The notes under the pieces were generated by a model. The model made no database searches. It was given only the letters and a program-made list of their open reading frames with translations, and was not told where the DNA came from. Position numbers and translations under genes: made by a program. Below are positions 35,622 to 52,311 of a stretch of DNA of 55,680 nucleotides, one piece after another. The DNA lies in assembly GCA_021787335.1 (NCBI GenBank), contig JAJYMC010000048.1:1-55680 (forward strand), written 5' to 3'. How positions within the stretch are numbered: position 1 is the first letter of the stretch; the number at the start of each line of letters is the position of its first letter. The stretch comes from Bacillota bacterium. GTDB taxonomy: Bacteria; Bacillota; Sulfobacillia; JAJYWN01; JAJZPE01.

Positions 35622-36788
35622 TCAAGCCGTTCCTCCGGCCACCTTGCTCGCCTCGCGGGCTTGGGCCGCCGTCTTCGTGGCAATGGCCCCCCTGGCCGCT
35701 CCGGCCGGCTGGGCGGGCCGTCCGGCCTGGACCGCCTTGAACAGTCCGAGCATCTCCTCCTCGGTGTGTCCCTTGAGGAGCTTCGGCTCGACGTGGATGA
35801 CCGAGTCCAGGAGGGCCCGGACGATGGCCTGTGAATCGAGGCGCTTCTTGCCCACCCGCGTGGCGCTGGAGACCTTCTTCAGCCACTCGGCCTGGTCGGC
35901 GTAGATGGTCAGGACGGAGACGACCTTGGCCCGCAGTTTCGGGCCGCTCGGGACCGGCGCCGGCGGAGTCTGGGCGGGCTGGGTCGAGACGAAGGCGACG
36001 GCCGGCTTGGCGGCCGGCGGCGCCGTGACGGGCTTGGCCGCGCCCTCCTGTCCGGCCGCGCCGGCCTCCCCGGCGGCGGCTGTCCCCTTCGGCTCCGCGG
36101 GCTGCTTCTTGGCCGCGTCGCGCGAATCCTGCCACCCGTCCCGGGCCAGTTGTAGCATCTGTGGCTCCATCCGGGCCTTCGGGTTCGAGACCACCTGGCT
36201 GAACCACTGGACGGCCTTGGCCGGGTTGCCCACGCGGCGGTGGAGCTCGCCGATAAGGTAGGTCACGGCGACCTCGCTCATCTTGCCGATGGGCATCGGC
36301 TCGCTGTTGAAGGCCTTCTCGTAGGCCTCGAGGGCCTTCTTGACGAGCTCGGCTTCCTTCGGATCGTGTTCCGCTCGATAGAGCCAGGCCGTCCTCAGGT
36401 AGAGACTGGCGAAGACGCTGTTCTTGGAACCCCTGATCTCAGCGCACTTGACCGCCCGTTCGTAGGCGGCGACGGCCTTCTTCGCGTCCCGCTCGCCGCT
36501 GAAGTCGATGCCGGCGTAGCCCATCTCGGCCAGGCCCTTGGCCAGCTTCTGCTGGTCTCCCGGGGTGACCTCGGCGAAGGCGGCGTCGGAGGCGGCGTAC
36601 CCGCAGTGCGGGCAGACCCAGACGCTGTAGAGATTCGGGTTGACGTTCTGATAGGTCACGCAGAAGTCCGTGTCGCGTTTGCTGACCATGCACATGGACC
36701 GCCGGACCTTGCGTGCGTTGAACGTCTTCTGGCAGACGGGACAGGTCTCTTCCTGATCGTAAAAGATCTTATCGTTCGCCAAAGGCAT
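35622..36788 (-). CDS. DUF2225-family protein with TPR-like middle
   Basis: The 388-residue protein opens with a zinc-finger-like set C16, C19, C33, C43, C59 and C62 (CPVC and CPHCGY), as in DUF2225 (Pfam PF09986), followed by helices of TPR type (about 90-230). An Ala/Pro/Gly-rich linker follows, then a C-terminal domain near 285-350 (KVSSATRVGKKRLDSQAIVR) not usual for the family. Function unknown. ATG 36788 follows GGGGAGGGGAAGG. Confidence 0.85.
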   Translation of the reverse strand: MPLANDKIFYDQEETCPVCQKTFNARKVRRSMCMVSKRDTDFCVTYQNVNPNLYSVWVCPHCGYAASDAAFAEVTPGDQQKLAKGLAEMGYAGIDFSGERDAKKAVAAYERAVKCAEIRGSKNSVFASLYLRTAWLYRAEHDPKEAELVKKALEAYEKAFNSEPMPIGKMSEVAVTYLIGELHRRVGNPAKAVQWFSQVVSNPKARMEPQMLQLARDGWQDSRDAAKKQPAEPKGTAAAGEAGAAGQEGAAKPVTAPPAAKPAVAFVSTQPAQTPPAPVPSGPKLRAKVVSVLTIYADQAEWLKKVSSATRVGKKRLDSQAIVRALLDSVIHVEPKLLKGHTEEEMLGLFKAVQAGRPAQPAGAARGAIATKTAAQAREASKVAGGTA

Positions 36789-36896
36789 CCTTCCCCTCCC
36801 CCAAATGCCTGTCGACCGTGATATCGGTTGGGCGGGGGGACCTCTTTACATTTTGAGGAAAAGATGTTCAAAACTCGGACACCCCCCCAAGCGAAC

Positions 36897-36935
36897 CCCT
36901 CAAAAAGAGGAGCCGCCCCATCTTCGGGGGCGGCT
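36897..36935 (-). terminator. Terminator of the second oligopeptide importer operon
   Basis: GAGCCGCCCC and GGGGCGGCTC arms around ATCTTCG (36908-36934) are followed on the minus strand by CTCTTTTTG. It is 47 bp past the oppF stop. Confidence 0.85.
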
Positions 36936-36981
36936 CCGGTTAGACTGGCGTTCAGCGCGGCCGTCCGGCTGGTGCTTCTCC

Positions 36982-37980
36982 TCAGGCCACCCAGCAGGCG
37001 ACCTTGTGGCCGGCGCCGCGGTCGGTCAGCTCGGGTTCCTTCTCCGAGCAGGCCGGCTTGGCCAGACGGCACCTCGTCCGGAAGTGGCAGCCGCTGGGCG
37101 GGTTGATCGGGCTGGGCACGTCGCCTTCGAGGATGATCCGGCGGCGCTCCTCCTCGACCGTGGGGTCGGGGATGGGAATGGCCGACAGGAGGGCCGTCGT
37201 GTAGGGATGGGACGGGTGGGCGTAAAGCTCGAAACCATCGGCTATCTCGACGATCTTGCCGAGGTACATGACGGCCACGCGGTTGGAGATGTGCTTGACC
37301 ATGGCCAGGTCGTGGGCGATGAACAGGTAGGTCAGGCCCATCTTCTCCTGGAGGTCCTGGAGCTTGTTGACCACCTGGGCCTGGATCGACACGTCCAGGG
37401 CCGAGATGGGTTCGTCGCAGATGATGAAACTCGGGTCGGCGGCCAGGGACCGGGCCAGCCCGATGCGCTGCCGCTGCCCGCCCGAGAACTCATGGGGGAA
37501 GCGGCTGGCGTGCTCGCGGCTCAGGCCGACCGTCTCGAGGAGCTGATAGATGCGCTCCTTACGGGCGTCGCCCTTGGCCAGGCCATGGATGTCGAGGGGC
37601 TCCCCGACGATGTCGCCGACGGTCATGCGGGGGTTCAGCGAGGCGTACGGGTCCTGGAAGATCATCTGGATCTTCCGGCGCACCCGGCGCATCTCCTCGG
37701 CCGGCAAGTCGTAGATGGACTGCCCGTCGAAGACGACCTTGCCCGAGGTCGGCTCGTAGAGCCGGGCCACGGTCCGTCCGACGGTGGTCTTGCCGCAGCC
37801 GCTCTCGCCGACGAGGCCGAGGGTCTCACCCTTGGCGATCTCGAAGCTGATGTCGTCGACGGCCTGGACCCATTCGTGGGAGGCGCCGAACGACAGGCCG
37901 GCGGCGGCCACCGGGAACCACTTCTTGAGGTGCTCGACCCGGACGAGGGCCTGGCCGTTATGGCCGTTTCCGCCGCTCAT
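36982..37980 (-). CDS. Oligopeptide importer ATPase (OppF-like), second system
   Basis: The 332-residue subunit has Walker [10 protein letters not shown], signature FSGGQRQR, Walker [13 protein letters not shown] and the C-terminal CHFRTRC motif of family-5 importers. It overlaps the oppD-like gene by 4 bp and ends before a strong terminator, so it is the last gene of the operon. Confidence 0.92.
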
Positions 37981-39002
37981 GCCGGCACCCCCTTCTTGAA
38001 GCCGGCCACGGCGGGCGCGGCGGGGTGCTGCAGCCAGCAGGCCACGTGGTGCTGCCCGTTCCCGTTGACCGGGACGAAGGGTGGCTCCTGCTCACGGCAG
38101 ATCTTCATGGCGTGGTCGCACCGAGGGTTGAAGCGACAGCCCACGGGCGGCTTGAGGAGGTCCGGCGGCTGCCCGTAGATGGGCACCAAACGGCGCTTCT
38201 CGGCCGCGTCGAGGCGCGGCACCGACCTCAGCAACCCCCAGGTGTAGGGATGCTGCGGGATTCCGTAGATCTCGTTGACCGGACCGTACTCGACGATCTT
38301 CCCGGCGTACATGACGATGACCCGAGTCGCCAGGCCGGCCACCACGCCCAGGTTGTGGGTGATGAGGATGATCGACATCCCGGTGGCCTTCTTGAGGTCC
38401 TTGAGTAACTCGATGATCTGGGCCTGGATGGTCACGTCGAGGGAGGTCGTCGGCTCGTCGCAGATGACCAGCTTAGGGTGGCAGGAGAGGGCCATGGCGA
38501 TCATCACCCGCTGCCGCATGCCCCCGGAGAGCTGGTGCGGGTACTGGGCGAGCCGCTTGTCCGCGCTCGGGATCTTGACCATCTCCAGGGTCTCGATGGC
38601 CCGGGCCCGGGCCTTGTCCTTCTCGACCTTCTGGTGCTGCCGGATGGCCTCCATGAGCTGCGTGCCGATGGTCAGGACGGGGTTCAGCGAGGTCATCGGG
38701 TCCTGGAAGACCATGCTGATGTCGTTGCCCCGGACGTGCCGCATCTCGCGCTCCTTGAGCTTGACGAGGTCGCGGCCGGCCAGTTCGACCGAACCGGCGA
38801 GGACCTTGCCCGGTTCGGGGATCAGTCGCAGCAGGGACATGGCCGTGACGCTCTTGCCACAACCGGACTCGCCGACGATGGCCACGGCCTCACCGCCGGC
38901 CACATCGAAGTTGACCCCATCGACCGCCCTGACCTCGCCGGCGTAGGTGAAGAACGAGGTCTTCAGGTCGCGGACTCTGAGCAGATTGTCCAAGGCCGCC
39001 AC
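37977..39002 (-). CDS. Oligopeptide importer ATPase (OppD-like), second system
   Basis: The 341-residue subunit has Walker [22 protein letters not shown], signature LSGGMRQR and Walker [13 protein letters not shown], and the C-terminal [14 protein letters not shown] motif. A degenerate scrap resembling its segment around [19 protein letters not shown] is found at 50014-50093. Confidence 0.93.
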
Positions 39003-39005
39003 CCC

Positions 39006-39965
39006 CTAGCGCCGCAGGCGCGGGTCGAGGGCGTCCCGCAACCCGTCGCCGAGGAAGTTGAAGGCCAGCATGGTCAGGCTGATAGCGGCCGCCGGGAAGA
39101 ACGTCTGCCACGGGTACGAACGCAACCCGCCGACGCCCTCCGAGGCCAGCACGCCCCAGGAGGCCTGGGGAGCGGCCACGCCGAGGCCGATGAAGGACAG
39201 CCAGGCTTCGGTGAAGATAGCCTGGGGGATGGACAGGGTCAGGGTGACGATGATCGGGCCCATCGCGTTCGGGATCAGGTGCCTGAGGAGCAGGCGCCGC
39301 TGGTCGGCCCCGACCATCCGGGCCGCCAGGACGAACTCCTGCTCCTTGAGGGCCAGCACCTGGCCGCGGACGATGCGGGCCATCCCCAGCCAGTAGACCA
39401 GCCCCAGGGCGACGTAGATGTTGAGCAACCCCGAGCCCATGACCACCATCAGGAGGATGACCACGAGCTGGAGCGGGATGCCATAGATGATGTCGACGAT
39501 GCGCATCATGACATTGTCGGTGCGCCCGCCGACCAGCCCGGAGATGCCTCCGTAGAGGGCTCCGACGGCCAGGTTGATGACGCTGGCGACGATGCCGATG
39601 GACAGGGAGATGCGCGCCCCATAGAGGACCCTGGTCAACTCATCGCGGCCGAGGTGGTCGGTCCCGAACCAGTGGGCCAGGCTGGGCGCCTTGTTGGCGT
39701 CGGTTAGCACCTGGCCGAAATAGGTATAGCCGGTCAGCATCGGGCCGAAGATGGCCAGGGCGATGAAGAGGATGATGACGTACAGGCCGCACATGGCCAG
39801 AAAGTTCTTTTTCAGCCGGCGCCAGGCGTCCTGCCAATAGGTCGTCGGCGGCCGGACGATGAGGTTCTGCTCTTCAGGGGCCGGTCCGACGTGTTCGAAG
39901 GCGTTCTCCGGAACGGGCCCGAAGACCCCCGGGTTGACCCCGTTGGCTACGCTCATGGCCTTCAA
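39006..39965 (-). CDS. Oligopeptide importer permease (OppC-like), second system
   Basis: The 319-residue protein has a cytoplasmic N-terminus of about 50 residues, a first helix (LAMCGLYVIILFIALAIFGPML), the loop HWFGTDHLGRDELTRV, further helices and the coupling motif AARMVGADQRRLLLRHLIPN. It forms the import pore with OppB. Confidence 0.93.
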   Translation of the reverse strand: MKAMSVANGVNPGVFGPVPENAFEHVGPAPEEQNLIVRPPTTYWQDAWRRLKKNFLAMCGLYVIILFIALAIFGPMLTGYTYFGQVLTDANKAPSLAHWFGTDHLGRDELTRVLYGARISLSIGIVASVINLAVGALYGGISGLVGGRTDNVMMRIVDIIYGIPLQLVVILLMVVMGSGLLNIYVALGLVYWLGMARIVRGQVLALKEQEFVLAARMVGADQRRLLLRHLIPNAMGPIIVTLTLSIPQAIFTEAWLSFIGLGVAAPQASWGVLASEGVGGLRSYPWQTFFPAAAISLTMLAFNFLGDGLRDALDPRLRR

Positions 39966-40891
39966 TCCTTCCGCCCGGCAATCTGGATCCGCGGATCCAG
40001 GAAGCCGTAGATGATGTCGACGACGAGGTTCATGAGCAGAAGGAAGGCCCCGTAGAAGATGGTCAGCCCGAGGATGGTCGTGTAGTCACGGTTGTTGACG
40101 CTCCAGACGAACTGCCGGCCGAGGCCCGGGATGGCGAAGATCTGCTCGATGATGAAGGTGCCGGTGAGGATGGCGGCGATGAGCGGGCCGAGGTAGGTGA
40201 CGATGGGCATGACCGCGTTCTTGACCGCGTGCCGCCAGGTCACCGCGAGCTCAGAAAGGCCCTTGGCGCGGGCCGTCTTGATGTAGTCCTGGCTGATGAC
40301 GTCGAGCATCGATGAGCGCATCAGCCGGGAGAAGGTCGCCAGGGGCAGGAGGGCCAGGGCGACCGCGGGCATGATGACCTGCCGCCAGCTGCCCCACATG
40401 GCCGGCGGCAGCCAGCGCAGCTTCAGGGCAAAGACGTACATCAAGAGCGGGGCGATGATGAAGCTCGGCACGGACACGCCGATGATGGCCACCAGCATGG
40501 TCACATTATCCTGCCACTTGTTCTGGCGCAGGGCCGAGATGATCCCGACCGGGATGCCGATGGCCATGGACAGGATGATGGAGATGATGCCCAGTTCGGC
40601 GGAGACCGGAAAGCCGCGGCGGATGAAGTCGTTGACCGTCTGGCCCTGGAACTTGAAGGACGGACCCAGGTCGAACCGGACGACCCCACCGAGGTAATCG
40701 AGATACTGCTGCCACAGCGGGTCGTCCAGATGGTATTTGGCCTCGATGTTCCGCATTACAGCCTCGGGCACGTTCCGCTCCCGGGTGAATGGTCCCCCGG
40801 GAATGGCGTGCATGAGGACGAAGGTGACGGTGGTGAGGATCCAAAGAGCAACGAAGGCGGCGAACACTCGCTGCAGGATGTAACGGGCCAA
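39962..40891 (-). CDS. Oligopeptide importer permease (OppB-like), second system
   Basis: The 309-residue protein begins with the usual ARYILQRVFAAFVALWILTTVTF segment and has six helices with the coupling loop TARAKGLSELAVTWRHAVKNA. The start is TTG 40891, 7 bases after GGAGG; the longer frame to 40951 is Arg/Gly-rich without a site. It overlaps the OppC-like gene by 4 bp. Confidence 0.92.
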   Translation of the reverse strand: MARYILQRVFAAFVALWILTTVTFVLMHAIPGGPFTRERNVPEAVMRNIEAKYHLDDPLWQQYLDYLGGVVRFDLGPSFKFQGQTVNDFIRRGFPVSAELGIISIILSMAIGIPVGIISALRQNKWQDNVTMLVAIIGVSVPSFIIAPLLMYVFALKLRWLPPAMWGSWRQVIMPAVALALLPLATFSRLMRSSMLDVISQDYIKTARAKGLSELAVTWRHAVKNAVMPIVTYLGPLIAAILTGTFIIEQIFAIPGLGRQFVWSVNNRDYTTILGLTIFYGAFLLLMNLVVDIIYGFLDPRIQIAGRKD

Positions 40892-40977
40892 GAGCTTCCC
40901 TCCCCCACCCGCGTCAAGGGAGGCGGGCAGGCCCCTATGGCGGGCCCGCACCGCCTCCCCGACGCGATGTCCAGGTT

Positions 40978-42636
40978 CTAGTGCTTCTCAATCCAGGCGT
41001 TCTTGAAGTCCACGCCGCCGATGGTGTTGATGGCGAGCCCCTTGACATAGGGCTTCATCAGCCAGTTGCTGACGTAGTAATAGATGGGCGCGACGACCAT
41101 GTCATCGCCGATGAGGATCTTCTCGGCGTCGTGCATGGCCTGCATCCGGACCTTTGGGTCGGCCGACATCTTCGCCGTATTGATCAACTCATCGAATTTC
41201 GGGTTGGAGTACGTCGTGTCGTTATTGCCGCCGTTGGTGACGAACATGTCCATGAAGGTCATCGGGTCGACGTAGTCGCCGATCCAGCCGGCCCGCGCCA
41301 CCTGGAAGTTATGAGCGTCCCTGGTCTCCAGATAGACCTTCCACTCTTCCACATGGAGCTTGACCTTCTCCTTGGGGATGCCAAGGTTCTTGGACCACAT
41401 CTCCTGGATGGCCTCGGCGATGGCCTTGTGGCTGGCGCTGCTGTTATAGATGATCTCGAAGCTCGGGAACTTCTTCATGTCCTTGTATCCGGCGTCGGCC
41501 AGGAGCTTCTTGGCCGCCTCGATGTCTTCCTTGAAGTAGTCTCCGCCGACAGCTCGGAAGTCCTTGCCAGCCTCGGTATCCGGAATGCCGGGACAAACGA
41601 AGGCGTAGGCCGGTAACCGCCCGTCCTTGAGGATCTGGTCAGTGATGAGTTTGCGGTCGATGGCCATGGCGAAGGCCTTGCGAACCCGCGGGTCATCGAA
41701 GGGCTTCTTGGTGACGTTGAAGGAGTAGTAGTAGGTGCCCAGGTAGGGCAGCGTAGTGAGCTTGCCCTCTTTCTTCAACCGGTCGATCTCCTGCACAGGC
41801 ACGTTATTGTCGAGGTCGGTCTGGCCGCTCTCCCACATGGTCAGCCCGGTGTTCTGATCGTCGATCAGATAGATCATCAGCTTCTTGAGGGGAACATTCT
41901 TGGCGTCCCAGTAGGTCTTGCTCTTCTCCATCTCGATGACTTGGTTGTTGACCCACTTCGTCATCTTGAAGGGGCCGTTGGTGACGAACTGCTCCGGCTT
42001 GGTGGCCCACTTGTCGGCGAACTTCTCGACTTCCGCCCGGTGGACGGGATAGAGGGTCGGGAACGAGGTCAAGCCGAGGAAGTACGGGGTCGGGGCCTCG
42101 AGGGTAACCTCGAGGGTATAGTCATCCGTGGCCTTGACGCCGAGGGCGTCGGACAGCTGCTTGATCTTCGCCTCGTCCTTGGCGTCGACCTCGTTAAGGG
42201 TCTTGCCGCCCTTGATGTAATACAGCTGATAGGCATACTGAGACCCGGTCCGCGGATCGAGAGCCCTCTTCCAGGACCACTCGAAGTCCTTCGCGGTGAC
42301 CGGGTCGCCATTGGACCATTTTGCGTTTTTGCGCAGGTGGAACGTATACTTCAGATTGTCGGACGAAATATCCCACTTCTCAGCTACGCCGGCGTAAGGC
42401 TTGTTGTTCCCGTCCATTCTGGTCAAGCCTTCGTACATCTGGGATCCGATATTGAACTCTGGAATGCCTGTCTGGAGGGCCGGATCGAGGGTCTCCGGCT
42501 CGGCGCCGACGTTGAACCGGAGGGTCTGATCCTTGGCCAGGTCACCAACCCCGGCCGGCTTCTTGGCGCAGCCCGCCAATCCCAGCGAGAGGGCCACGGC
42601 CACAGTCAGCATGATGGCGATGAGTTTCTTAGACAA
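40978..42636 (-). CDS. Oligopeptide-binding lipoprotein (OppA-like), second system
   Basis: The 552-residue lipoprotein has signal and lipobox LAGC near residues 20-23. The mature part has the family-5 features TLRFNVGAEPETLDPALQTG, QMYEGLTRMDGNNKPYAGVAEKW and KFHLRKNAKWSNGDPVTAKDFEWSWKR-like pattern, closest to OppA rather than DppA. It should bind peptides of several residues. The start is TTG 42636 with GAAGGA. It heads the operon oppA-B-C-D-F. Confidence 0.93.
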   Translation of the reverse strand: MSKKLIAIMLTVAVALSLGLAGCAKKPAGVGDLAKDQTLRFNVGAEPETLDPALQTGIPEFNIGSQMYEGLTRMDGNNKPYAGVAEKWDISSDNLKYTFHLRKNAKWSNGDPVTAKDFEWSWKRALDPRTGSQYAYQLYYIKGGKTLNEVDAKDEAKIKQLSDALGVKATDDYTLEVTLEAPTPYFLGLTSFPTLYPVHRAEVEKFADKWATKPEQFVTNGPFKMTKWVNNQVIEMEKSKTYWDAKNVPLKKLMIYLIDDQNTGLTMWESGQTDLDNNVPVQEIDRLKKEGKLTTLPYLGTYYYSFNVTKKPFDDPRVRKAFAMAIDRKLITDQILKDGRLPAYAFVCPGIPDTEAGKDFRAVGGDYFKEDIEAAKKLLADAGYKDMKKFPSFEIIYNSSASHKAIAEAIQEMWSKNLGIPKEKVKLHVEEWKVYLETRDAHNFQVARAGWIGDYVDPMTFMDMFVTNGGNNDTTYSNPKFDELINTAKMSADPKVRMQAMHDAEKILIGDDMVVAPIYYYVSNWLMKPYVKGLAINTIGGVDFKNAWIEKH

Positions 42637-43008
42637 TGGTTCCTTCGACCTCCTTCGGAAGACCTTCTCCGAACGGAAGCCGTCGGGCCTTGCTTCGCTT
42701 GTCTTGCTTGCCTAAGAACGAGCCTCGCCTCACGGGCTTGCGCGCGTTTCAGACGGTCTTTGCGCTTCCGAGCTTTCCGGCGGTTCCGTCCCCAGGAAAC
42801 AAGGACTGGAAACGTGGGCAAAAGACCGAAACCTAACACACCCCGAATCGCGACGGAAACCAGGTCGCCCCACTCTCACCCCCTGTGAGCTTCCCGCCGG
42901 GCTGAAGCCCTGTAGAAATGCGGGTAATGGGCATAATTGGCACAAATTATCTAATTCGCTCCCAGGTTCCGGAATCCTGCGTTCTTTCTAATAGGTTGGA
43001 AGAGTTAA
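42637..43008. other. Upstream region of the second opp operon
   Basis: About 370 bp lacks a supported gene. It contains runs of short GCTT-type repeats (42680-42715) and an AT-rich spot at 42935-42962 that could hold the oppA promoter. A short basic open frame on the minus strand (42606-42839) overlaps the oppA start and has no support. Confidence 0.4.
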
Positions 43009-43033: not shown

Positions 43034-43080
43034 TCAGGTGCGATGGCGGGCGTCGAACCGAGATCCGGGCGGCGGGCCGC

Positions 43081-44553
43081 CTAACCCGCCGGGAGCGAGA
43101 ACCAGAAGCGGGCTCCGTCGGCCGGGACGTTCTCGGCCCCGACCGCCCCGCCGTGGGCCTCGACGAAGCCCTTCACGATGGCCAGTCCCAGGCCGGTCCC
43201 CCCCTCGGCCCGCGTCCTGGTCGGCCCGGTAGAAGCGGTCGAACACGTGGGGCAGGTCCTCGGGCGGGACGCCGGGACCACTGTCGGTGACGCTGACGAC
43301 GGCCGCGGGGCCGCCTTCCGCGCCGTGCCCCCCTGGTCCTTGCCCGGGGACGACGTCGATGCTCACCCGGCCATCCTGGCCGGCGTGGCGCAGGGCATTG
43401 GTTAGCAGGTTGAGGAGGACCTGCTTGACCCGGTCGGGGTCGGCCTCGACCGGCGGGACGCCGGCCGCCTCCTCGACCTGAAGGTCGATGGCCAGCCGCT
43501 CGGCCTCGGGGCTGATCACCCCGACCACCGAATGGGCCAAGGCCGCCAGGTCGAGGCGCTCCTTCCGCAGGGGCAGCTGGCCGGCCTCGGCCAGGCTCAG
43601 TTCCCGAAGGTCGTTGACCAGACGGGTCATCCGCAGGACCTCGTCCTGCAGGGACAGCAGGACCTCCGGACGCAGCGCGGCCGCGTCCTCCTGGGCCGCT
43701 TCGAGCTGGCCGCGGAGAATGGCCAGGGGCGTCCGGAGCTCGTGGGCAATGTCGCCGACCATGTTCCGCCGCAGCTCCTCATTGCGCTGAAGGCTGCGGG
43801 CCAGGAAGTTGAAGGCCCGGGCGAGGTCCCCGATCTCGTCACTGCGGTCCTCCGGGACGCGGTGGGCCAGCTCTCCCCGGGCCAGCCGGTGGGCACCGGC
43901 GGCCAGGACGTCCAGCGGCCGGCTCAAGCGCCTTGCCAACCAGACGGCGACCAGCCCGGCGAGGACGGCCGACAAGAGGCCCCCCAGGACCGAGATGACC
44001 AGCGCCGAGTGGGAGAAGTCGCTGTCGAGCGCGCTCAGGCCAGCCCGGGGCCCGGTGACCAGGGTACCCGCTGCCCGTCGACGAGGATGGGACGCCCCGC
44101 GTTGATGACGGCTCGGCTGAGGACGGTTCCCACGGCCGGGGCGTCACCGCCCTCGGGGGATAGGGTCGCGACCACCCGGCCATCGCGGTCGGCCAGGGTC
44201 AGCGTCTCGGACCCGAGGAGACTATGCGGAGGCCCACCCGGCCAGCCGCCGTAGCGCCCAAAGCCCATCCGGCCCAGGCCTCCCCAACCCGGAGTCGACA
44301 TCATCGTCTGAACGCCTTCCCAGCTGCCGTTGGCGGCGTAGTAGCCGGCCAGGGTCGCCTGGACCTGCTCGAGGCGGGCGTCGCGCTGCCCGGCCAGGTA
44401 CCCGGCGAAGAGCCGCTGGGTGGCCAGGCTCGAGACCAGGCCGACGAGGGTGGCGCTGACCACGACGACGCCGATGAAGGACAGGGTCAGCCGCCGGGCG
44501 AGGTTCATCCGGCGCAGGAACAGTGAGTCGGAAAAAGGCCGTGGTGCCTTCAT
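43081..44553 (-). pseudogene. Decayed sensor histidine kinase (copy A)
   Basis: This region is a close paralogue of the intact kinase at 50138-51604 along its whole length, but it has at least two frame breaks. Near 44060-44080 a deletion joins GQRV to an unrelated tail, so the N-terminal frame ends at 44035. Near 43215 a 5-base loss (GCGTCCTGG against GCGTCCGGGCCTGG in copy B) shifts the frame within the ATP-binding domain, leaving the [13 protein letters not shown] block in another frame. The HAMP and HisKA ([15 protein letters not shown]) parts are still readable. The start overlaps the regulator's TGA exactly as in copy B. It is non-functional as a single protein. Confidence 0.85.
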
Positions 44554-44819
44554 CGTCCCTCACCTCCCCCGCCCTTAAACTTGTAGCCGACTCCGAAGAC
44601 GGTGCCGATGAACCTCGGCTCTGAGGGGTCGGTCTCGACCTTCTTGCGGAGGTTGCGGACACGGGTGTCGACCGAACGCTCGTAGCCCTCCTACGCGTAG
44701 CCGAAGGCTGCGTCCAGCAGCTGCAGGTGTGAGAAGACCATACCCGGGTGCCGGGCGAGGGCCCCGAGGATGGCGAACTCGGTCGGGGTCAGGCGACCGG
44801 CCGTCGACGGTCAGCGTCT
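44550..44819 (-). pseudogene. Truncated response regulator (copy A)
   Basis: Only the C-terminal winged-helix part remains (RSVDTRVRNLRKKVE and FIGTVFGVGYKF). Homology to the intact regulator at 51601-52311 stops near 44819 within the segment matching its GRPIDLTPTEF region, so the receiver domain is absent. A nonsense change is also present: the codon matching Tyr in the FGYAYEGYE run of copy B is TAG (near 44695). The break is immediately next to the AT-richer island, so insertion or deletion at the island edge probably removed the rest. Confidence 0.8.
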
Positions 44820-44978
44820 GCACATCTCTCACTGGCTGGCGGGAAGGAATGTGGGCTGTGTCGGATTTCAGCCCTTCCTGTCGAACTCTAATCGCTCTTC
44901 CCTTGAAGGAACTGGCACTGATGGTGTCGAAACCCTGGCATAAAATAGGCTCCGGCACAGATGTTGGGAGGCATTAGG

Positions 44979-47117
44979 ATGTTAGATTCTGGCCCGAATT
45001 ACGTATTTGGGACTCGACGACGTATGTTCGAAGACGGAGGAGCAAGATACCTAACCTTTGTCGTAACTCAGAACTGTAACCTTGCATGTAAATACTGCTA
45101 TGTAACTCACAAGAACGCTCATGGAAGGATGAGTTTTGACACCGCGCGAAGGGCAGTGGACTTTTTTCTCTCACAAGACTTCCCTCAAGACTCCGTGGTA
45201 TGGGACTTTATTGGAGGCGAACCGCTGTTAGAAATACAACTTATCGATCAAATCTGTGATTATATCAAGGTGGAATCGTACAGGCGGAACCACAAATGGA
45301 AAGACCGCTACCTCATTAACATGAGTACAAATGGAGTACTGTATGACAGCAAGCCAGTTCAGACGTTCATTGCAAAGAACCGCGAAAAGGTAAACTTTGG
45401 CTTGACCATTGACGGGATCAAAGCCAAACATGACGCGAACAGAGTATACCCGGACGGGTCCGGTTCCTATGAGGATGTTATTAGAAGCGTGAGGTTATGG
45501 TCCCAGCAATTCCCCGAAGCGGTCACCAAAGTAACCGTTGCCTCTGATGACTTGCCTTACCTTTACGAGAGCATCGTTCATCTTTGGAACCTCGGCTTAA
45601 GAGATGTACCCGCTAACGTCGTCTACGAAGACGTTTGGAAGCCGGGCGACGACCAGATACTAGAAGTACAGTTAAAGGAATTGGCGGATTACGTTATAGA
45701 CAATAAGCTTTGGAACAAGGTCAGATGTACTTTCTTCACTGATACGATTGGGTTCCCCAATAAGAGAGAGTATCTTTATTCTAATGCATGCGGAGCCGGA
45801 AGGTCCATTGCCGTCGACCATACCGGATCGCTGTACCCGTGCTTGAGGTTTATCGGTTACTCCCTGAATAACAAGAATGGATACACTGTCGGCCACATTG
45901 ATCGCGGCTTCGACCAGGACAAGATCAGGGCCTTTGAAGCCTTGACTCTCTTGGCCCAAAGCAAACAAGAATGTATTGAATGTCCAATAGCCTTTGGATG
46001 CACATGGTGTCAAGGGTGGAACTATGATTCTGCACCTTCCGAAACCATATACCATAGATCAACCGCAATATGCAGGATGCACAAAGCAAGAATAAGAGCG
46101 AACGAGTACTATTGGGGTAGACTGGCCAGAGAAACTGGAATGCGTCGCCCGCAGCAAGAACAGGGAAAATGGCTTAGGCATCTCTTCATTATGGCTTCAG
46201 ATGATGCAGTAGTTCATTGTTCCTATGAGAACAAGAGCACAGATTTCACTTTGATCGATGTTTCGCACCTTATAGCCGGACTCCGCTTCGCGGAGCGCGA
46301 GTTTTTCAGACCGGTCATCCTTCATTCAAAGTCTGGAGAGAGGTTATTAATCCCTTCGCCGTATGATCCTCTTCACATCGTGAGCGGTGATAAGGCCTGC
46401 GCCGATTCGGAAATCGCAGTTCATGAGAATACCGTCCAGGACTCAGTCTCAACAGACACAAGCATACTTATCGTCGACAATGGGTTGATTCCGGCCATTG
46501 GTGATCTGACAAGCAAGCTATTGGACCAATCCCGCAGAGTTAACCTTGTTCTCCGCGACCCTGGATCCCTCTCTCCGCATGACCTTGTCATGTACGAAGA
46601 ACAACTGAAACTTGTGGCGCGAAAACTCTTGTCGCTACGCTCCGCGGGGATAAAAAAGGAAGTTAGTGCTATAACCGACCGCTTTGAGCTTGGAGAACCA
46701 GAGGACTGCGGCGCCGGCGTGAGCAGTCTAACTCTCGCGCCCAATGGGCGTCTATATCTATGCCCTGCGTTTTATCTCGAAGATAAGGGGTCATTTGTTG
46801 GAACTCCAGTTGACGGGATAGACATGAACAAGGTCGAGATGTGCACGCGAAAGAAAGCTCCTTTGTGCCAAGATTGCCAAGCTTTCTCTTGTCGACGTTG
46901 CCTTTATCTCGGGAGAAAGTATACCTTGCAGATGAACGTCCCTTCGAAGGCACAGTGCACTACCGGATTGGTTGAACTCCGAGTTAGCGCTTGGATGGCA
47001 CGTCAGATAGAAAAGGTAGGTCCGGACTGGGTGAGCGTGGCTGAAAAGGATGAGCTTTTGGACCCTCTTGAACGGCTATTCTCGCGGACCCGCCTAGTGG
47101 GGGCGGGTGCGCTATGA
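44979..47117 (+). CDS. Radical SAM/SPASM peptide maturase with a second SPASM-like half (CXXX-repeat type fusion)
   Basis: This 712-residue enzyme should modify the Cys-rich peptides coded downstream. Residues 25-230 are a radical SAM core: C33, C37 and C40 in QNCNLACKYCY bind the SAM cluster, followed by WDFIGGEPLL. Residues 265-370 are a SPASM domain with C271 (CGAGRS), C288 (YPCLRF), C332, C335, C341, C344 and C365. From about 400 a second half lacks the SAM motif but repeats the ending: C577 (CGAG), C595 (LYLCPAFY), C622, C630, C633, C638, C641 and C660. From memory the halves correspond to TIGRFAM families for CXXX-repeat peptide maturation, usually separate genes. ATG 44979 lies 7 bases after GGGAGG. 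The coding sequence is AT-richer than its surroundings. Confidence 0.85.
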   Translation: MLDSGPNYVFGTRRRMFEDGGARYLTFVVTQNCNLACKYCYVTHKNAHGRMSFDTARRAVDFFLSQDFPQDSVVWDFIGGEPLLEIQLIDQICDYIKVESYRRNHKWKDRYLINMSTNGVLYDSKPVQTFIAKNREKVNFGLTIDGIKAKHDANRVYPDGSGSYEDVIRSVRLWSQQFPEAVTKVTVASDDLPYLYESIVHLWNLGLRDVPANVVYEDVWKPGDDQILEVQLKELADYVIDNKLWNKVRCTFFTDTIGFPNKREYLYSNACGAGRSIAVDHTGSLYPCLRFIGYSLNNKNGYTVGHIDRGFDQDKIRAFEALTLLAQSKQECIECPIAFGCTWCQGWNYDSAPSETIYHRSTAICRMHKARIRANEYYWGRLARETGMRRPQQEQGKWLRHLFIMASDDAVVHCSYENKSTDFTLIDVSHLIAGLRFAEREFFRPVILHSKSGERLLIPSPYDPLHIVSGDKACADSEIAVHENTVQDSVSTDTSILIVDNGLIPAIGDLTSKLLDQSRRVNLVLRDPGSLSPHDLVMYEEQLKLVARKLLSLRSAGIKKEVSAITDRFELGEPEDCGAGVSSLTLAPNGRLYLCPAFYLEDKGSFVGTPVDGIDMNKVEMCTRKKAPLCQDCQAFSCRRCLYLGRKYTLQMNVPSKAQCTTGLVELRVSAWMARQIEKVGPDWVSVAEKDELLDPLERLFSRTRLVGAGAL

Positions 47118-47135
47118 AAGGGGTTCTGAAGGAAC

Positions 47136-47453
47136 ATGGGAGAAGAGACCAGGGAATTGAGTTTGGGTTTTATAACTGAACCTGAAAACGAAGCTCTGAA
47201 GAGGATCTATGATCGAAGAATGGCATTGATGAGCTTGGCTAGAACATTGGCGACCCTGCCGGATAAGACATCTAATGACTTGTATAGCCGCCTAGTGGCT
47301 GACTCCACCTCAGTCGAGGGGGATATGCGGCACTGGTGGGAGGGTGTATGTCGTGACCACGGATGGGAAAACCCGGCTGTCGGGAGCTGGAGTGTGAACT
47401 TCCAAACGAAGGCAGTCACTGTCTATTTGCCTATCGCCGCAGGTGGGTCTTGA
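47136..47453 (+). CDS. Small accessory protein of the peptide-modification cluster
   Basis: The 105-residue acidic protein has no membrane segment or cysteine pair (one Cys, in EGVCRDHGW). It has a helical N-terminal part (EPENEALKRIYDRRMALMSLARTLATL) and a Trp-rich end (MRHWWEGVCRDHGWENPAVGSW). Size and position, between maturase and exporter, match a small protein found in CXXX-repeat systems (a TIGRFAM 'modification system protein', from memory). It may bind the leader peptide. ATG 47136 follows GAAGGA closely. The next gene begins 6 bp after its stop. Confidence 0.65.
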   Translation: MGEETRELSLGFITEPENEALKRIYDRRMALMSLARTLATLPDKTSNDLYSRLVADSTSVEGDMRHWWEGVCRDHGWENPAVGSWSVNFQTKAVTVYLPIAAGGS

Positions 47454-47458
47454 GTTGC

Positions 47459-49243
47459 ATGGCAAGATTGCGGACCAGAGCATGTTACTCTTCGAACGGT
47501 ACGACGAATAGGAGCAACGTACTTGTTCTCAGGTCTATTCGATATTGCAGCGATTTTTCTTGGTCAAGTGCGAGTATTGTCTTGATCGCAGCTTTAGGTA
47601 TGGTCTTGTCCGTTCTCTATCCCCGGCTTCTGGGACGAACACTTGATGCGGTCGTCGGCCGCAACTTGAAACTAGTCTATTCTCTGCTCCTCGCGGTCCT
47701 TGGTATTCTGTTGCTTCAAGCACTTCAAAGCCTAATGGAAACCTATCTTCTGGGAAGCATGACAGGTCGTATTGCGTGGCGGGCAAAAAAAGATCTTTAC
47801 ACCCGGGTCATTTCGCTGCCTGCCCGAAGATACGACACTACGCAGCAAGGTGAATTCCTGTCGCGAATCGAGAATGACGTAGGCGCACTTAACGCATTAT
47901 TGAGCAATCTGTTACGCCTAGTGCCTGAGTCCATACGGACGGTCGTTATCCTTGTCCTGATTTTCAGACTGTCATTTCTTCTTTCAGTCGTGCAGTTGGC
48001 CATAATCCCATTCCTCTATGCAACCTCATCTGTGTCTGGCAGGGCTCTCAAGAGGCTCAATCTGGCTTTAAGACAATTGTCTGACCGCTATTTTGGTTTC
48101 GTTCAAGAAACCTTGGCTGCAAACCGCGAGGTGAAAAGCCTACAACTAGAACAAGACCGGGTTCGGCGTTTTGCGGAATTGGCTAAGGACCTCTGGGCTG
48201 CGTCGATGTCAATAACCGTCACCCAAGCGTGTTCCGGCCTCAGCAACTTGGTTATTGGAGGTCTAGGTTCCGTTGCCATTCTGGGGTTCGCCGCACGGCA
48301 AATCGCGACCGGTGATCTCACTATCGGGGAACTGATAGCCTTTACAATGTACGCCGCGCAACTCTCCTCCGCGCTGAAGGATCTCACTGGGTTTGTCAGA
48401 CTGAAAGGCGAGCTCTCTCCGTCTCTAGAAAGGTTGTTCTCCCTGCTAGATGAGGATTCTGAGGATCCGTCGATGGTCACGGGGCATCCGATAAGGGTTC
48501 TTAGGGGCAGGGTTCTCCTTCGTAATGTGAGCTTCAGTTATGGCGATGGGGGGCCACGGGTCCTCGACGGAGTGACATGCGAGTTCGAACCCGGCCAAAT
48601 CACGGGGCTAATGGGCTCGAACGGGAGTGGTAAGACGACCCTCCTGAACCTTCTGTCCAGACTCTACACGCCACAGACCGGCATGATTCTTATTGATGGG
48701 CAGGATATACGAAACGTTGACCTTAAGAGCTTGCGGAGGGCCATATCTGTAGTCCACCAGGAACCTGCGTTCTTTCGCACGACGATCTTGGAGAACATGC
48801 TCTTGGCGAATCAAGAGGCGACTCCAGCTGAGGTCGAAAGAGCTTGTGAGCTCGCTGGAGCCGCCGCATTCATTAGAGATTTCCCAAAGCGGTACGAAAC
48901 AGTGTTGTCAGATCGGGGAGCCAGCCTGTCTGGTGGACAGCGGCAGCGGCTGGCTTTGGCAAGAGCGCTATTGAGGAGATCCCCTATCCTGCTATGCGAC
49001 GAGGCTACATCGGCTGTTGACGTCGAAACTGAGGCTCAGATCATGACGACTCTAAAGGAGTTAGCTCCTGGCCATAATATCATCCTTGTCTCCCACCGCC
49101 CCTCAGCCATCATGCATACCGACAAGGTGCTGGTTCTGGAACAAGGAAGAATTCGTCACATGGGTGTACCGCGCGAGATTCTTGACCCTAGTTTGCTGGA
49201 GCAACGGCCAAGTCTTGACTCTGCTCGTGCCAACCCCACATAG
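47459..49243 (+). CDS. ABC exporter (fused membrane and ATPase domains), probable peptide exporter
   Basis: The 594-residue half-transporter has six helices over about residues 35-290, then an ATPase with Walker A GSNGSGKTT, signature LSGGQRQR, Walker B ILLCDEAT and switch HRPS. It dimerises in the membrane to export a substrate, most likely the Cys-rich peptide. No C39 peptidase domain precedes it, so it does not itself cut the leader. Start ATG 47459 is uncertain: the site (AGGTGGG) is weak. The frame is open to 47363 but overlaps the small gene. It ends 17 bp before the tandem precursor cassettes. Confidence 0.85.
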   Translation: MARLRTRACYSSNGTTNRSNVLVLRSIRYCSDFSWSSASIVLIAALGMVLSVLYPRLLGRTLDAVVGRNLKLVYSLLLAVLGILLLQALQSLMETYLLGSMTGRIAWRAKKDLYTRVISLPARRYDTTQQGEFLSRIENDVGALNALLSNLLRLVPESIRTVVILVLIFRLSFLLSVVQLAIIPFLYATSSVSGRALKRLNLALRQLSDRYFGFVQETLAANREVKSLQLEQDRVRRFAELAKDLWAASMSITVTQACSGLSNLVIGGLGSVAILGFAARQIATGDLTIGELIAFTMYAAQLSSALKDLTGFVRLKGELSPSLERLFSLLDEDSEDPSMVTGHPIRVLRGRVLLRNVSFSYGDGGPRVLDGVTCEFEPGQITGLMGSNGSGKTTLLNLLSRLYTPQTGMILIDGQDIRNVDLKSLRRAISVVHQEPAFFRTTILENMLLANQEATPAEVERACELAGAAAFIRDFPKRYETVLSDRGASLSGGQRQRLALARALLRRSPILLCDEATSAVDVETEAQIMTTLKELAPGHNIILVSHRPSAIMHTDKVLVLEQGRIRHMGVPREILDPSLLEQRPSLDSARANPT

Positions 49244-49337
49244 CCGTGGCCATTCCTCCTGACTTTGCCTAATGCCTTTACAGTCATTGGCCTCGCAAGA
49301 ACCACTTGCTAGCTCAAGGTTGCCATGAAGGAGGTGA

Positions 49338-49499
49338 ATGACATGTATCTTATCTCCAAGACCATTGGTGCGTCCTTTGTACACATGCGAGGTCTCGACA
49401 AATGGCTGCACAACTTGTAGCGATACTTGCTACGGCGGATGCAGCGGTTCCTGCACTGCTACGTGCACTGGATTTGTGAAATTAGGGCCAAACCCTTGA
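49338..49499 (+). CDS. Cys-rich precursor peptide 1, leader frame shifted
   Basis: In the frame that keeps the cysteine core, ATG 49338 starts a 53-residue peptide whose core (CEVSTNGCTTCSDTC, then YGGCSGSCTATC) has spacing C-x6-C-x2-C-x3-C-x3-C-x3-C-x3-C, nearly the same as peptide 2. Its first 16 residues (MTCILSPRPLVRPLYT) differ from the leader MYLISKTG of peptide 2. That leader is instead coded from ATG 49343, 5 bases on in another frame, and stops after 25 codons at 49420. Compared with copy 2 there is a 5-base length difference in the leader. The ATG 49338 lies only 3 bases after GGAGG, so translation is doubtful. Probably a broken precursor; frameshifted or reinitiated expression is possible. 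Confidence 0.55.
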   Translation: MTCILSPRPLVRPLYTCEVSTNGCTTCSDTCYGGCSGSCTATCTGFVKLGPNP

Positions 49500-49563
49500 C
49501 CTTCTCTAACGCTCCGCAGTTGATTGGTCGTCGCAACAGCCACCTGCTAGGTCAATGGCGCCA

Positions 49564-49580
49564 TAAAGGAGGTGAATAAC
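49564..49580 (+). promoter_or_regulatory. Strong ribosome site deciding the peptide-2 start
   Basis: AAAGGAGGTGA with an 8-base gap leads to ATG 49581. This favours MYLISKTG as the N-terminus over the in-frame GTG at 49572, which lies inside the site. Confidence 0.8.
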
Positions 49581-49790
49581 ATGTACCTTATCTCCAAGAC
49601 TGGACCACAGGTGGGTCCGTTGTACACATGCGAGGTCTCGATATATGGCTGCACAACTTGTAGCGATACTTGCTACGGAGGGTGCAGCGGTTCCTGCTAT
49701 ACCAATGCTTGCACCGGCCAGTTAGGTGGTGGTGGCTGCGACCCGGCCATAACGAATCCAAGCGGTAGCGGCTGTGTCGCGTTGCCCTAG
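49581..49790 (+). CDS. Cys-rich RiPP precursor peptide 2 (CXXX-repeat type)
   Basis: The 69-residue peptide has a short leader (MYLISKTGPQVGPLYT) and a core with nine cysteines: spacing C-x6-C-x2-C-x3-C-x3-C-x3-C-x4-C, then C in GGGGCDP and C in SGSGC. Gly, Ser and Thr fill the gaps, and there is no Lys or Arg after the leader. This is typical of substrates of radical SAM/SPASM enzymes that make thioether or other cross-links; the radical SAM gene is in the same cluster. The x3 spacing matches CXXX-repeat families. It ends before a terminator. Whether the last two cysteines are modified is unknown. Confidence 0.8.
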   Translation: MYLISKTGPQVGPLYTCEVSIYGCTTCSDTCYGGCSGSCYTNACTGQLGGGGCDPAITNPSGSGCVALP

Positions 49791-49871
49791 CGGGAACCAT
49801 CCATCAAGAAGATCCTTTGCGAGCAGCAACCTCAATCGTGGGCGACCGCCTAGCTTGGTGGTGTAACAAAC

Positions 49872-49899
49872 TTGGGCCGAATTCTTCGGCCCATTTTTT
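49872..49899 (+). terminator. Intrinsic terminator of the peptide cluster
   Basis: GGGCCGAA and TTCGGCCC arms (49874-49881 and 49885-49892) with the loop TTC are followed by A and six T. It ends the island's transcript 82 bp after the precursor stop. Confidence 0.92.
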
Positions 49900-50013
49900 C
49901 TGGGGCGCAAATGGGGCAACAGGGTGGAGCTCTACGCTCTCGATCCTGGGTCACGCCAACTCTCCCCAGCACATCTCGGCCTATTAAGAGGGGGAAAGAA
50001 GTAATCTCCTTTT

Positions 50014-50093
50014 GACTGGGCCGCGTTCCACGATCCTACCGGCGTCCATGACGATGACCCGGTCGCCAGACCTGGTTGCTACGCCCGGGAGCA
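50014..50093 (-). pseudogene. Scrap of an OppD-type ATPase gene
   Basis: About 80 bp resemble 38277-38360, the part of the oppD-like gene coding [16 protein letters not shown]. Here the minus frame reads roughly GDRVIVMDAGRIVERGP and then degenerates. It lies downstream of the intact kinase, just after the island terminator. It is a relic of importer genes that once lay beside the two-component pair or were copied with it. Confidence 0.6.
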
Positions 50094-50137
50094 AACGAAC
50101 CTTGCCCGGCTTTCGGCGGCCCAACCTTCCGGGGGGC

Positions 50138-51604
50138 CTAGCTCACTGGGAGCGAGAACCAGAAGCAGGCCCCGCCGCCGGGGACGTTCTCGGCGCCGAC
50201 CGCCCCGCCGTGGGCCTCGACGAAGCCCTTGACGATGGCCAGGCCCAGGCCTGTCCCCCCCGCGGCCCGCGTCCGGGCCTGGTCGGCCCGGTAGAAGCGG
50301 TCGAAGATGTGGGGCAGGTCTTCGGTCGGGACGCCGGGACCGCTGTCGGTGACCCTGACGACGGCCGCGGGGCCGCCTTCCGCGCCGTGCCCCCCTGGTC
50401 CTTGCCCGGGGACGACGTCGATCGTCACCCGGCCATCCTGGCCGGCGTGGCGCAGGGCGTTGGTCAACAGGTTCAGGAGGACCTGCTTGACCCGGTCGGG
50501 GTCGGCCTCGACGGGTGGAACCCCGGCCGCTTCCTCCACCCGCAGGTCGATGGCCAGCCGCTCGGCCTCGGGGCCGATCACCCCGACCACCGCGCGGGCC
50601 AGCGCCGCCAGGTCGAGGCGCTCCTTCCGCAGGGGCAACTGGCCGGCCTCGGCCAGGCTCAGCTCCCGCAGGTCGTTGACCAGACGGGTCATCCGCAGGA
50701 CCTCGTCCTGCAGGGACAGCAGGACCTCGGGGCGAAGCGCGGCCGCGTCCTCCTGGGCCGCTTCGAGCTGACCGCGGAGGATGGCCAGGGGCGTCCGCAG
50801 TTCGTGGGCGATGTCCCCGACCATGTTCCGGCGCAACTCCTCGTTGCGCTGGAGGCTACGGGCCAGGGAGTTGAAGGCGCGGGCGAGGTCCCCGATCTCG
50901 TCACCCCGGTCTTCCGGGACGCGGTGGGCCAGGTCCCCTTGGGCCAGCCGGTGGGCCCCCGTGGCCAGGACATCCAGCGGCCGGGTCAGCCGCCTGGCCA
51001 GCCATACGGCGACCAGCCCGGCGACCACCGCCGAGAGCAGCCCGCCCAGCACCGAGATGATCAGCGCGGACCGGGCGAAGTCGCTGTCGACGGCGCTCAG
51101 GCCGGCCCGGGGTCCCGTCACCAGGGTGCCGACCCGTTGGCCGCCGACGACGATGGGCCGCCCACCGTCGACCGTGGCGCGGCTGAGGACGGTGCCCACG
51201 GCCGGGGCGCCGCTGCCCTCGGGGGCCAGCGTGGCGACCACCCGGCCGTCCTGGTCGGCCAGGGTCAGCGTCTGGGAACCGAAGGAGCCGAACGGGGGAC
51301 CCCCTGGCCAGCTCCGGTAGCGGCCGAAGCCCATCCGGCCCAGGCCGCCCCAGCCGGGCGTCGACATCATCGTCTGGACACCGTCCCAGCTGCCGTTGAC
51401 GGCGTAATAGCCGGCCAGGGTCGCCTGGACCTGCTCCAGGCGCGCGTCCCGCTGCCCGACCAGGTACCCGGCGAAGAGCCGCTGGGTGGCCAGGCTGGAG
51501 ACCAGACCGACGAGAGTGGCGCTGACCACGACGACGCCGATGAAGGACAACGTCAATCGCCTGGCCAGGGTCATCCGGCGGGGGAAGAGCCGGCGGGCGC
51601 TCAT
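50138..51604 (-). CDS. Sensor histidine kinase (intact copy B)
   Basis: The 488-residue membrane kinase has helix 1 at about 17-39, an outer sensor region 40-178 rich in Gly/Pro ([24 protein letters not shown]), helix 2 at about 180-202, a HAMP domain, HisKA with phosphorylated H267 in DIAHELRTP, and HATPase with the N box (LLTNALRHA), DSGPGVP and [13 protein letters not shown]. The signal is unknown. It overlaps the upstream regulator gene by 4 bp. It is the functional paralogue of the decayed copy at 43081-44553. Confidence 0.93.
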
Positions 51605-52311
51605 CGGACGTCACCCGTCCCGCCCGTGAACTTATAGCCGACCCCGAAGACCGTGCCGATGAACCGGGGCTCCGAGGGGTCGGCTTCGATCTTCTTGCGA
51701 AGGTTACGGACATGGGTGTCGACCGAGCGCTCATAACCCTCATAGGCGTAGCCGAAAGCCGCCTCCAGCAGTTGCAGGCGGGAGAAGACCTTCCCGGGAT
51801 GCCGGGCCAGGACCCCGAGGATGGCGAACTCCGTGGGGGTCAGATCGATCGGCCGGCCGTCGACGGCCACCGTGCGGGCGTCAAAGTCGATGGCCAGCGG
51901 GCCGCGCTCGAGGCGGTCCGGCCCGGCCTTTCCACCCGCCCCGCCGGCCCGCCGGAGGACAGCCCTGATCCTGGCCGTCAATTCGCGCAGGCTGAATGGC
52001 TTGGTGACATAATCGTCGGCCCCCAGTTCGAGGCCGACCACCCGGTCGACCTCGTCCGCTCGGGCGGTGATGACGATGATGGGGATGGTGGACCCGGGCC
52101 GAAGCCGCTTGATGACCTCGGTTCCACCGAGCCGCGGGAGCATCAGGTCCAGCAGGATGAGGTCCGGAGCCTGTTCCCTGGCCATCCTCAGGCCGGTGTC
52201 GCCGTCCGGCGCGGTAAGGGTGGCAAAACCCTCGCGCCCGAGATACTCGGCGACGGCTTCACGCAGCTTGGTCTCGTCTTCGACGATGAGGATGCGGGGC
52301 GCGGCAGCCAT
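51601..52311 (-). CDS. OmpR/PhoB-family response regulator (intact copy B)
   Basis: The 236-residue regulator has a receiver domain with E11/D12, phosphorylated D55 in LILLDLMLP, the conserved Thr in ITARADE and K104 in YVTKPF, then a winged-helix DNA-binding domain (ELTARIRAVLRR linker, RSVDTHVRNLRKKIE and FGVGYKF). It is probably paired with the kinase it overlaps. An 11-bp-period direct repeat lies upstream of its start, a spacing OmpR-type proteins prefer. Confidence 0.93.
   Translation of the reverse strand: MAAAPRILIVEDETKLREAVAEYLGREGFATLTAPDGDTGLRMAREQAPDLILLDLMLPRLGGTEVIKRLRPGSTIPIIVITARADEVDRVVGLELGADDYVTKPFSLRELTARIRAVLRRAGGAGGKAGPDRLERGPLAIDFDARTVAVDGRPIDLTPTEFAILGVLARHPGKVFSRLQLLEAAFGYAYEGYERSVDTHVRNLRKKIEADPSEPRFIGTVFGVGYKFTGGTGDVR

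Follow-up and report, generated by a model that had tools for sequence, protein, structure and literature searches.

The window, i.e. the whole stretch of 55,680 nucleotides analyzed here, harbors a set of genes on the plus strand at 44979-49899 (coding for a radical SAM enzyme of the SPASM type, a protein of 105 aa, an exporter of the ABC class and peptides rich in cysteine, with a terminator at the end), which is a new, recognizable member of the known, largely unstudied CXXX-repeat peptide family. We consider it fairly probable that the set is a CXXX-repeat RiPP cluster gained by horizontal transfer, in which the second of two precursor genes provides the substrate, the radical SAM enzyme serves as a thioether-forming maturase and the product leaves the cell through the ABC protein. 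The maturase gene (44979-47117, 712 aa), with GGGAGG as its RBS, is followed by the genes for a CXXX repeat peptide modification system protein (47136-47453, 105 aa), the exporter (about 47459-49243, the start codon being uncertain), precursor 1 (49343-49499) and precursor 2 (49581-49790), all on the plus strand. The intrinsic terminator (49873-49899, plus strand) is claimed on the strength of one 9-bp stem (49873-49893) with T6 behind it; taken together, terminator-like sites do not rise above the level in shuffled sequences. All genes were found where the original prediction of a same-direction set ending in a terminator had placed them. A promoter scan gave no site exceeding chance, and Rfam gave no match in the window. 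PADLOC yielded generic hits only, i.e. viperin on the SAM core and ATPases on the exporter, and consequently no defence role is claimed.

The original prediction depended on the 712-residue protein being related to SPASM peptide maturases, and this kinship was borne out by the NCBIfam models: residues 23-378 match TIGR04115 (511.9 bits, cut-off 350, E 1e-153) and residues 496-700 match TIGR04119 (194.6 bits, cut-off 150, E 1e-57). Together with the TIGR04116 match of the 105-aa protein, likewise over its cut-off, this also upholds the predicted assignment of the gene set to the CXXX-repeat systems. The order along the chain is a radical SAM barrel, SPASM-1 (C271 to C365), an apparently decayed second barrel and SPASM-2 (C577 to C660). 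The radical SAM CxxxCxxC motif (C33, C37 and C40) is kept in all eight aligned maturases covering that stretch, while the seven cysteines of SPASM-1 (C271, C288, C332, C335, C341, C344, C365) and those of SPASM-2 (C577, C595, C630, C633, C638, C641, C660) are kept in nine out of nine aligned long maturases. When the N-terminal and C-terminal halves were aligned to each other by hhalign, a probability of 97.2 was obtained (E 4.6e-11), and SPASM-1 and SPASM-2 alone gave E 5.7e-8; judged from these alignments, the C-terminal half is homologous to the N-terminal half and has a second full seven-Cys SPASM. Since the halves align only over the SPASM and the last part of the barrel, it is by inference that we call the remainder of the C-terminal half a decayed barrel, with support from the alternating helices and strands in its predicted structure. 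Ahead of SPASM-2, this half has one invariant cysteine, C414, and no CxxxCxxC. From the ligand cysteines, about five [4Fe-4S] clusters are predicted for the enzyme.

The AlphaFold2 model of the maturase is fair (pLDDT 72.3), and its first 380 residues superimpose on CteB (PDB 5wgg) with a Z of 28.9 and an rmsd of 3.5 over 336 aligned residues; by sequence profile, the match to CteB has an E of 8.5e-43. As the match begins at CteB residue 90, the maturase has no counterpart to the N-terminal part of CteB. A more far-reaching idea, which we hold to be rather doubtful, is that the radical SAM enzyme is a pseudo-dimer within one chain and holds five [4Fe-4S] clusters; its second half, catalytically dead but with a complete SPASM, would act as a substrate ruler allowing the one active site to cross-link the CXXX run stepwise, and the resulting peptide topology would be a hitherto undescribed one. 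In any case, the double-SPASM maturase raises a concrete question, namely what role is played by a second half that has no SAM motif yet keeps its SPASM complete.

The 105-aa protein matches TIGR04116 marginally (51.9 bits, cut-off 50, E 6e-14), and a protein 44% identical to it (P0008) adjoins the maturase in another locus (L044). Its predicted structure (pLDDT 90.5) has a beta-alpha-alpha-beta-beta order, an arrangement apparently unlike that of the RRE, which is a winged-helix fold. A fold search with this model gave no significant match, the best row, at Z 7.6, being meaningless at such a low Z. In the exporter, both the membrane domain (PF00664) and the ATPase domain (PF00005) exceed their cut-offs, and the domain search found no C39 peptidase domain.

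Two Cys-rich peptides had been predicted from the window, and both Cys-rich stretches are indeed present, but an intact in-frame leader is found only in precursor 2. This peptide, MYLISKTGPQVGPLYTCEVSIYGCTTCSDTCYGGCSGSCYTNACTGQLGGGGCDPAITNPSGSGCVALP, has 69 residues, nine of them cysteines, with a MYLISK leader and a CXXX-spaced core in which the CXXX-type units run C-TT-C-SDT-C-YGG-C-SGS-C; the cluster thereby includes the small Cys-rich precursor, with CXXX units in succession, that the definition of the system calls for. The precursor 1 region is an upstream tandem duplicate of precursor 2, including about 50 bp of the 5' region. The alignment of the two leaves a 5-nt gap directly after the MYLISK codons of precursor 1, which thereby has its leader and its Cys-rich core in different frames. 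Translation from the well-spaced start at 49343 begins with MYLISKT but departs thereafter from the core's reading frame; the sole start that yields the core, the ATG at 49338, is spaced three bases from GGAGG, and its product is without the leader motif. We read this as a recent frameshift, with an assembly error as the alternative, and regard precursor 1 as a probable pseudogene. A whole-genome search revealed no further precursor copy.

Precursor 1 stayed below the cut-offs of TIGR04117, TIGR04118 and TIGR04114 (15.9 vs 50 for TIGR04117, and 10.1 vs 20), precursor 2 obtained no score with any of the three, and most precursors of the relatives also fall short of the curated models. Among 13 precursors compared, a short motif of about the form [YF]x(0-2)SK recurs in the N-terminal leader even in distant relatives, usually with S and then K, R or Q in about the first eight residues. 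Its forms include MYLISK, MFLTSK, MYSSK, NYSSK and YNSK, with the variants LFSAKK and YDNQ, and it is separated from the first cysteine by about 10-20 residues. No acceptor residue between the cysteines, D/E included, is conserved among the 13.

Out of 154 genomes of the class, two have the CXXX-repeat system, namely the genome of the window and G014, the latter with two copies (57 and 52% identity). The cluster is absent from the sampled genomes of the same genus and the same family, and in a broad phylum sample of 398 only the window itself passes the TIGR04119 cut-off. In the family to which a Blautia genome belongs, 9 out of 397 matched the maturase profile, and in the class of that genome 6 out of 391; some of these matches are shorter proteins that lack the second half. 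Around long maturases elsewhere, a TIGR04116-like protein, exporters and CXXX precursors are found, and similar gene sets with CXXX precursors occur in distant genomes (L043, L044, L047, L048, L063-L066 and L090-L093). Six peptide patterns detected no maturase relatives in viral contigs.

Various other genes were seen near such systems. In G014 (L043, 1-12000), one cluster has an IS21-like transposase gene on one side and apparent gas vesicle genes on the other, and in two other loci (L091:9134-9826 and L092:8926-9585) a subtilisin-like protease gene, a candidate for the leader protease, is situated upstream of the maturase. LanM-like lanthionine synthetase genes occur near CXXX systems at L047:10604-12055 and L068:855-3980, suggesting bacteriocin islands; all these gene identities were assigned by eye. 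Two genomes (L067 and L071) share a near-identical CXXX maturase region beside an IS110-like transposase, the maturase being shortened in both and more so in L071. Furthermore, tail regions resembling those of prophages, in gut Lachnospiraceae relatives (L070:5272-8103 and L069:5101-7991), include a radical SAM protein (phrog_1802) adjoining a protein of 228-365 aa whose C-terminal part is almost all CXX/CXXX repeats, a Cys-rich target similar in kind to that of the island; in L070, genes for baseplate, tail collar and endolysin lie alongside. We note as a lead a possible phage tail part modified by a radical SAM enzyme.

The composition of the island departs from that of its surroundings, with a G+C of 47-54% against 67-73% in the flanks and a GC3 of 0.46-0.61 for its genes against 0.84-0.96 for flanking genes. 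The original prediction had proposed a G+C plot of the region, and this displays a sharp drop to 0.47-0.54 followed by a return to 0.73; in 200-bp windows, G+C goes from 0.68 over 0.54 to 0.47 at the left edge (44600-45200) and from 0.56 over 0.67 to 0.77 at the right edge (49800-50400). On both sides lies a copy of a two-component system on the minus strand. The left copy (43073-44817) has a frameshifted histidine kinase and a response regulator cut at the island edge, while the right copy (50130-52311) is intact (histidine kinase 50138-51604, response regulator 51601-52311), the two being 86.5% identical over 1760 columns. At the right junction there is also a remnant of about 60 bp from the end of an opp-type ATPase gene (50012-50072, minus strand), 82% identical to window positions 38275-38336 and also matching L082 at 2747-2815.

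A genome of the same genus, G001, has the opp genes and then one two-component pair, with no cluster up to the contig end, which comes just past this pair; it is 85-89% identical to the window over 36107-42740 and 75-77% in the two-component pair. In G002, one two-component pair adjoins phosphofructokinase. The window's two copies have far more sites in common with each other than either has with G001, which places the duplication, or else the divergence from the second copy's donor, after the split from G001. At their outer borders, both copies agree with the native order. A Campbell-type event, in which a circular molecule bearing the cluster together with part of the pair integrates by one crossover, would explain this layout, and a tandem duplication followed by insertion would explain it as well. 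No integrase or transposase was recognized by eye among the larger ORFs of the window. Transfer, originally suggested from composition, gains further ground from the cluster-free G001 with its single pair and the distribution of 2 out of 154 in the class; horizontal acquisition is well supported by the composition, the flanking repeats, the cluster-free genus mate and the patchy distribution.

That the cluster is instead native, its low G+C arising from expression or function, seems very improbable to us. G014 of the same class does have two related clusters with a host-like GC3 of 0.89, but the absence from the sampled genomes of the same genus and family and from nearly the whole class, the sharp composition edges, and G001 with its one two-component system and no cluster all speak for acquisition. 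Somewhat more credible, yet still unlikely, is a cluster in decay that no longer functions, as could be imagined from the broken precursor 1, the foreign composition and the rearranged flanks. The 5-bp frameshift in precursor 1 and the broken left two-component copy fit such decay; against it, the maturase, the TIGR04116 protein, the exporter and precursor 2 are all open reading frames, every cluster-ligand cysteine is kept in the maturase and the terminator is intact.

In the reading that we prefer, i.e. the acquired and working CXXX-repeat cluster, precursor 2 with its MYLISK leader and 9-Cys core would be the working substrate. Its short leader would dock on the maturase, perhaps via the 105-aa TIGR04116 protein, given that the maturase lacks an N-terminal recognition domain. 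The radical SAM barrel would then generate a 5'-deoxyadenosyl radical that abstracts hydrogen from core residues, and the SPASM clusters may hold and oxidize the intermediate so that Cys sulfurs bond carbons to form thioether rings, as the kinship with CteB and PapB suggests, with the second half of the enzyme probably binding the Cys-rich chain or relaying electrons. The ABC protein would export the product, a host protease would have to remove the leader, as no protease is encoded in the island, and an antagonistic or signaling use may be envisaged. The chief competitor, to which we give a modest chance, is that the maturase performs non-thioether chemistry (C-C or C-O cross-linking, or epimerization), the cysteines forming disulfides or binding metal after export. 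Related SPASM maturases make cyclophanes, by NCBIfam family names, or ethers, according to PMC9055067, and the D/E acceptor is not conserved. However, the closest family and fold matches (PapB NF047865, E 2.7e-62, and CteB) form thioethers and the substrate is extremely Cys-rich, making thioether cross-linking of the peptide likely. Further points weighing against the preferred reading are the precursors falling below the curated models, the marginal TIGR04116 match, the maturase model pLDDT of 72 and an island without a protease or recognizable immunity gene.

Compared with known systems, the island shares with the NCBIfam CXXX-repeat system (TIGR04115, TIGR04119, TIGR04116) both maturase domains, the partner protein, a precursor and an ABC exporter. 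It differs in that its precursors reach none of the precursor models of that system (TIGR04114, TIGR04117, TIGR04118), in its fused maturase and in its G+C-rich lineage, where the system is rare; nor does it have the protease of the L091 and L092 CXXX systems. With the CteB/SCIFF thioether maturase (PDB 5wgg, 5why), the N-terminal 380 residues of the maturase have fold and SPASM in common, whereas the N-terminal recognition domain is missing, a second SPASM half is added and the SCIFF model TIGR03974 is failed (129 vs a cut-off of 425). The ranthipeptide maturase PapB (NF047865) is the second-best NCBIfam match by E-value, at 210.9 bits and below its cut-off of 340, and further maturase models likewise score far under theirs; PapB links Cys to Asp/Glu, as PMC9413430 states, whereas no Asp/Glu acceptor is conserved in precursors of the island type. 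A search of open-access text, with most subscription journals outside its range, returned no paper on the CXXX-repeat system. With three genes and one intact substrate, the island is compact and therefore a practical test case for this system.
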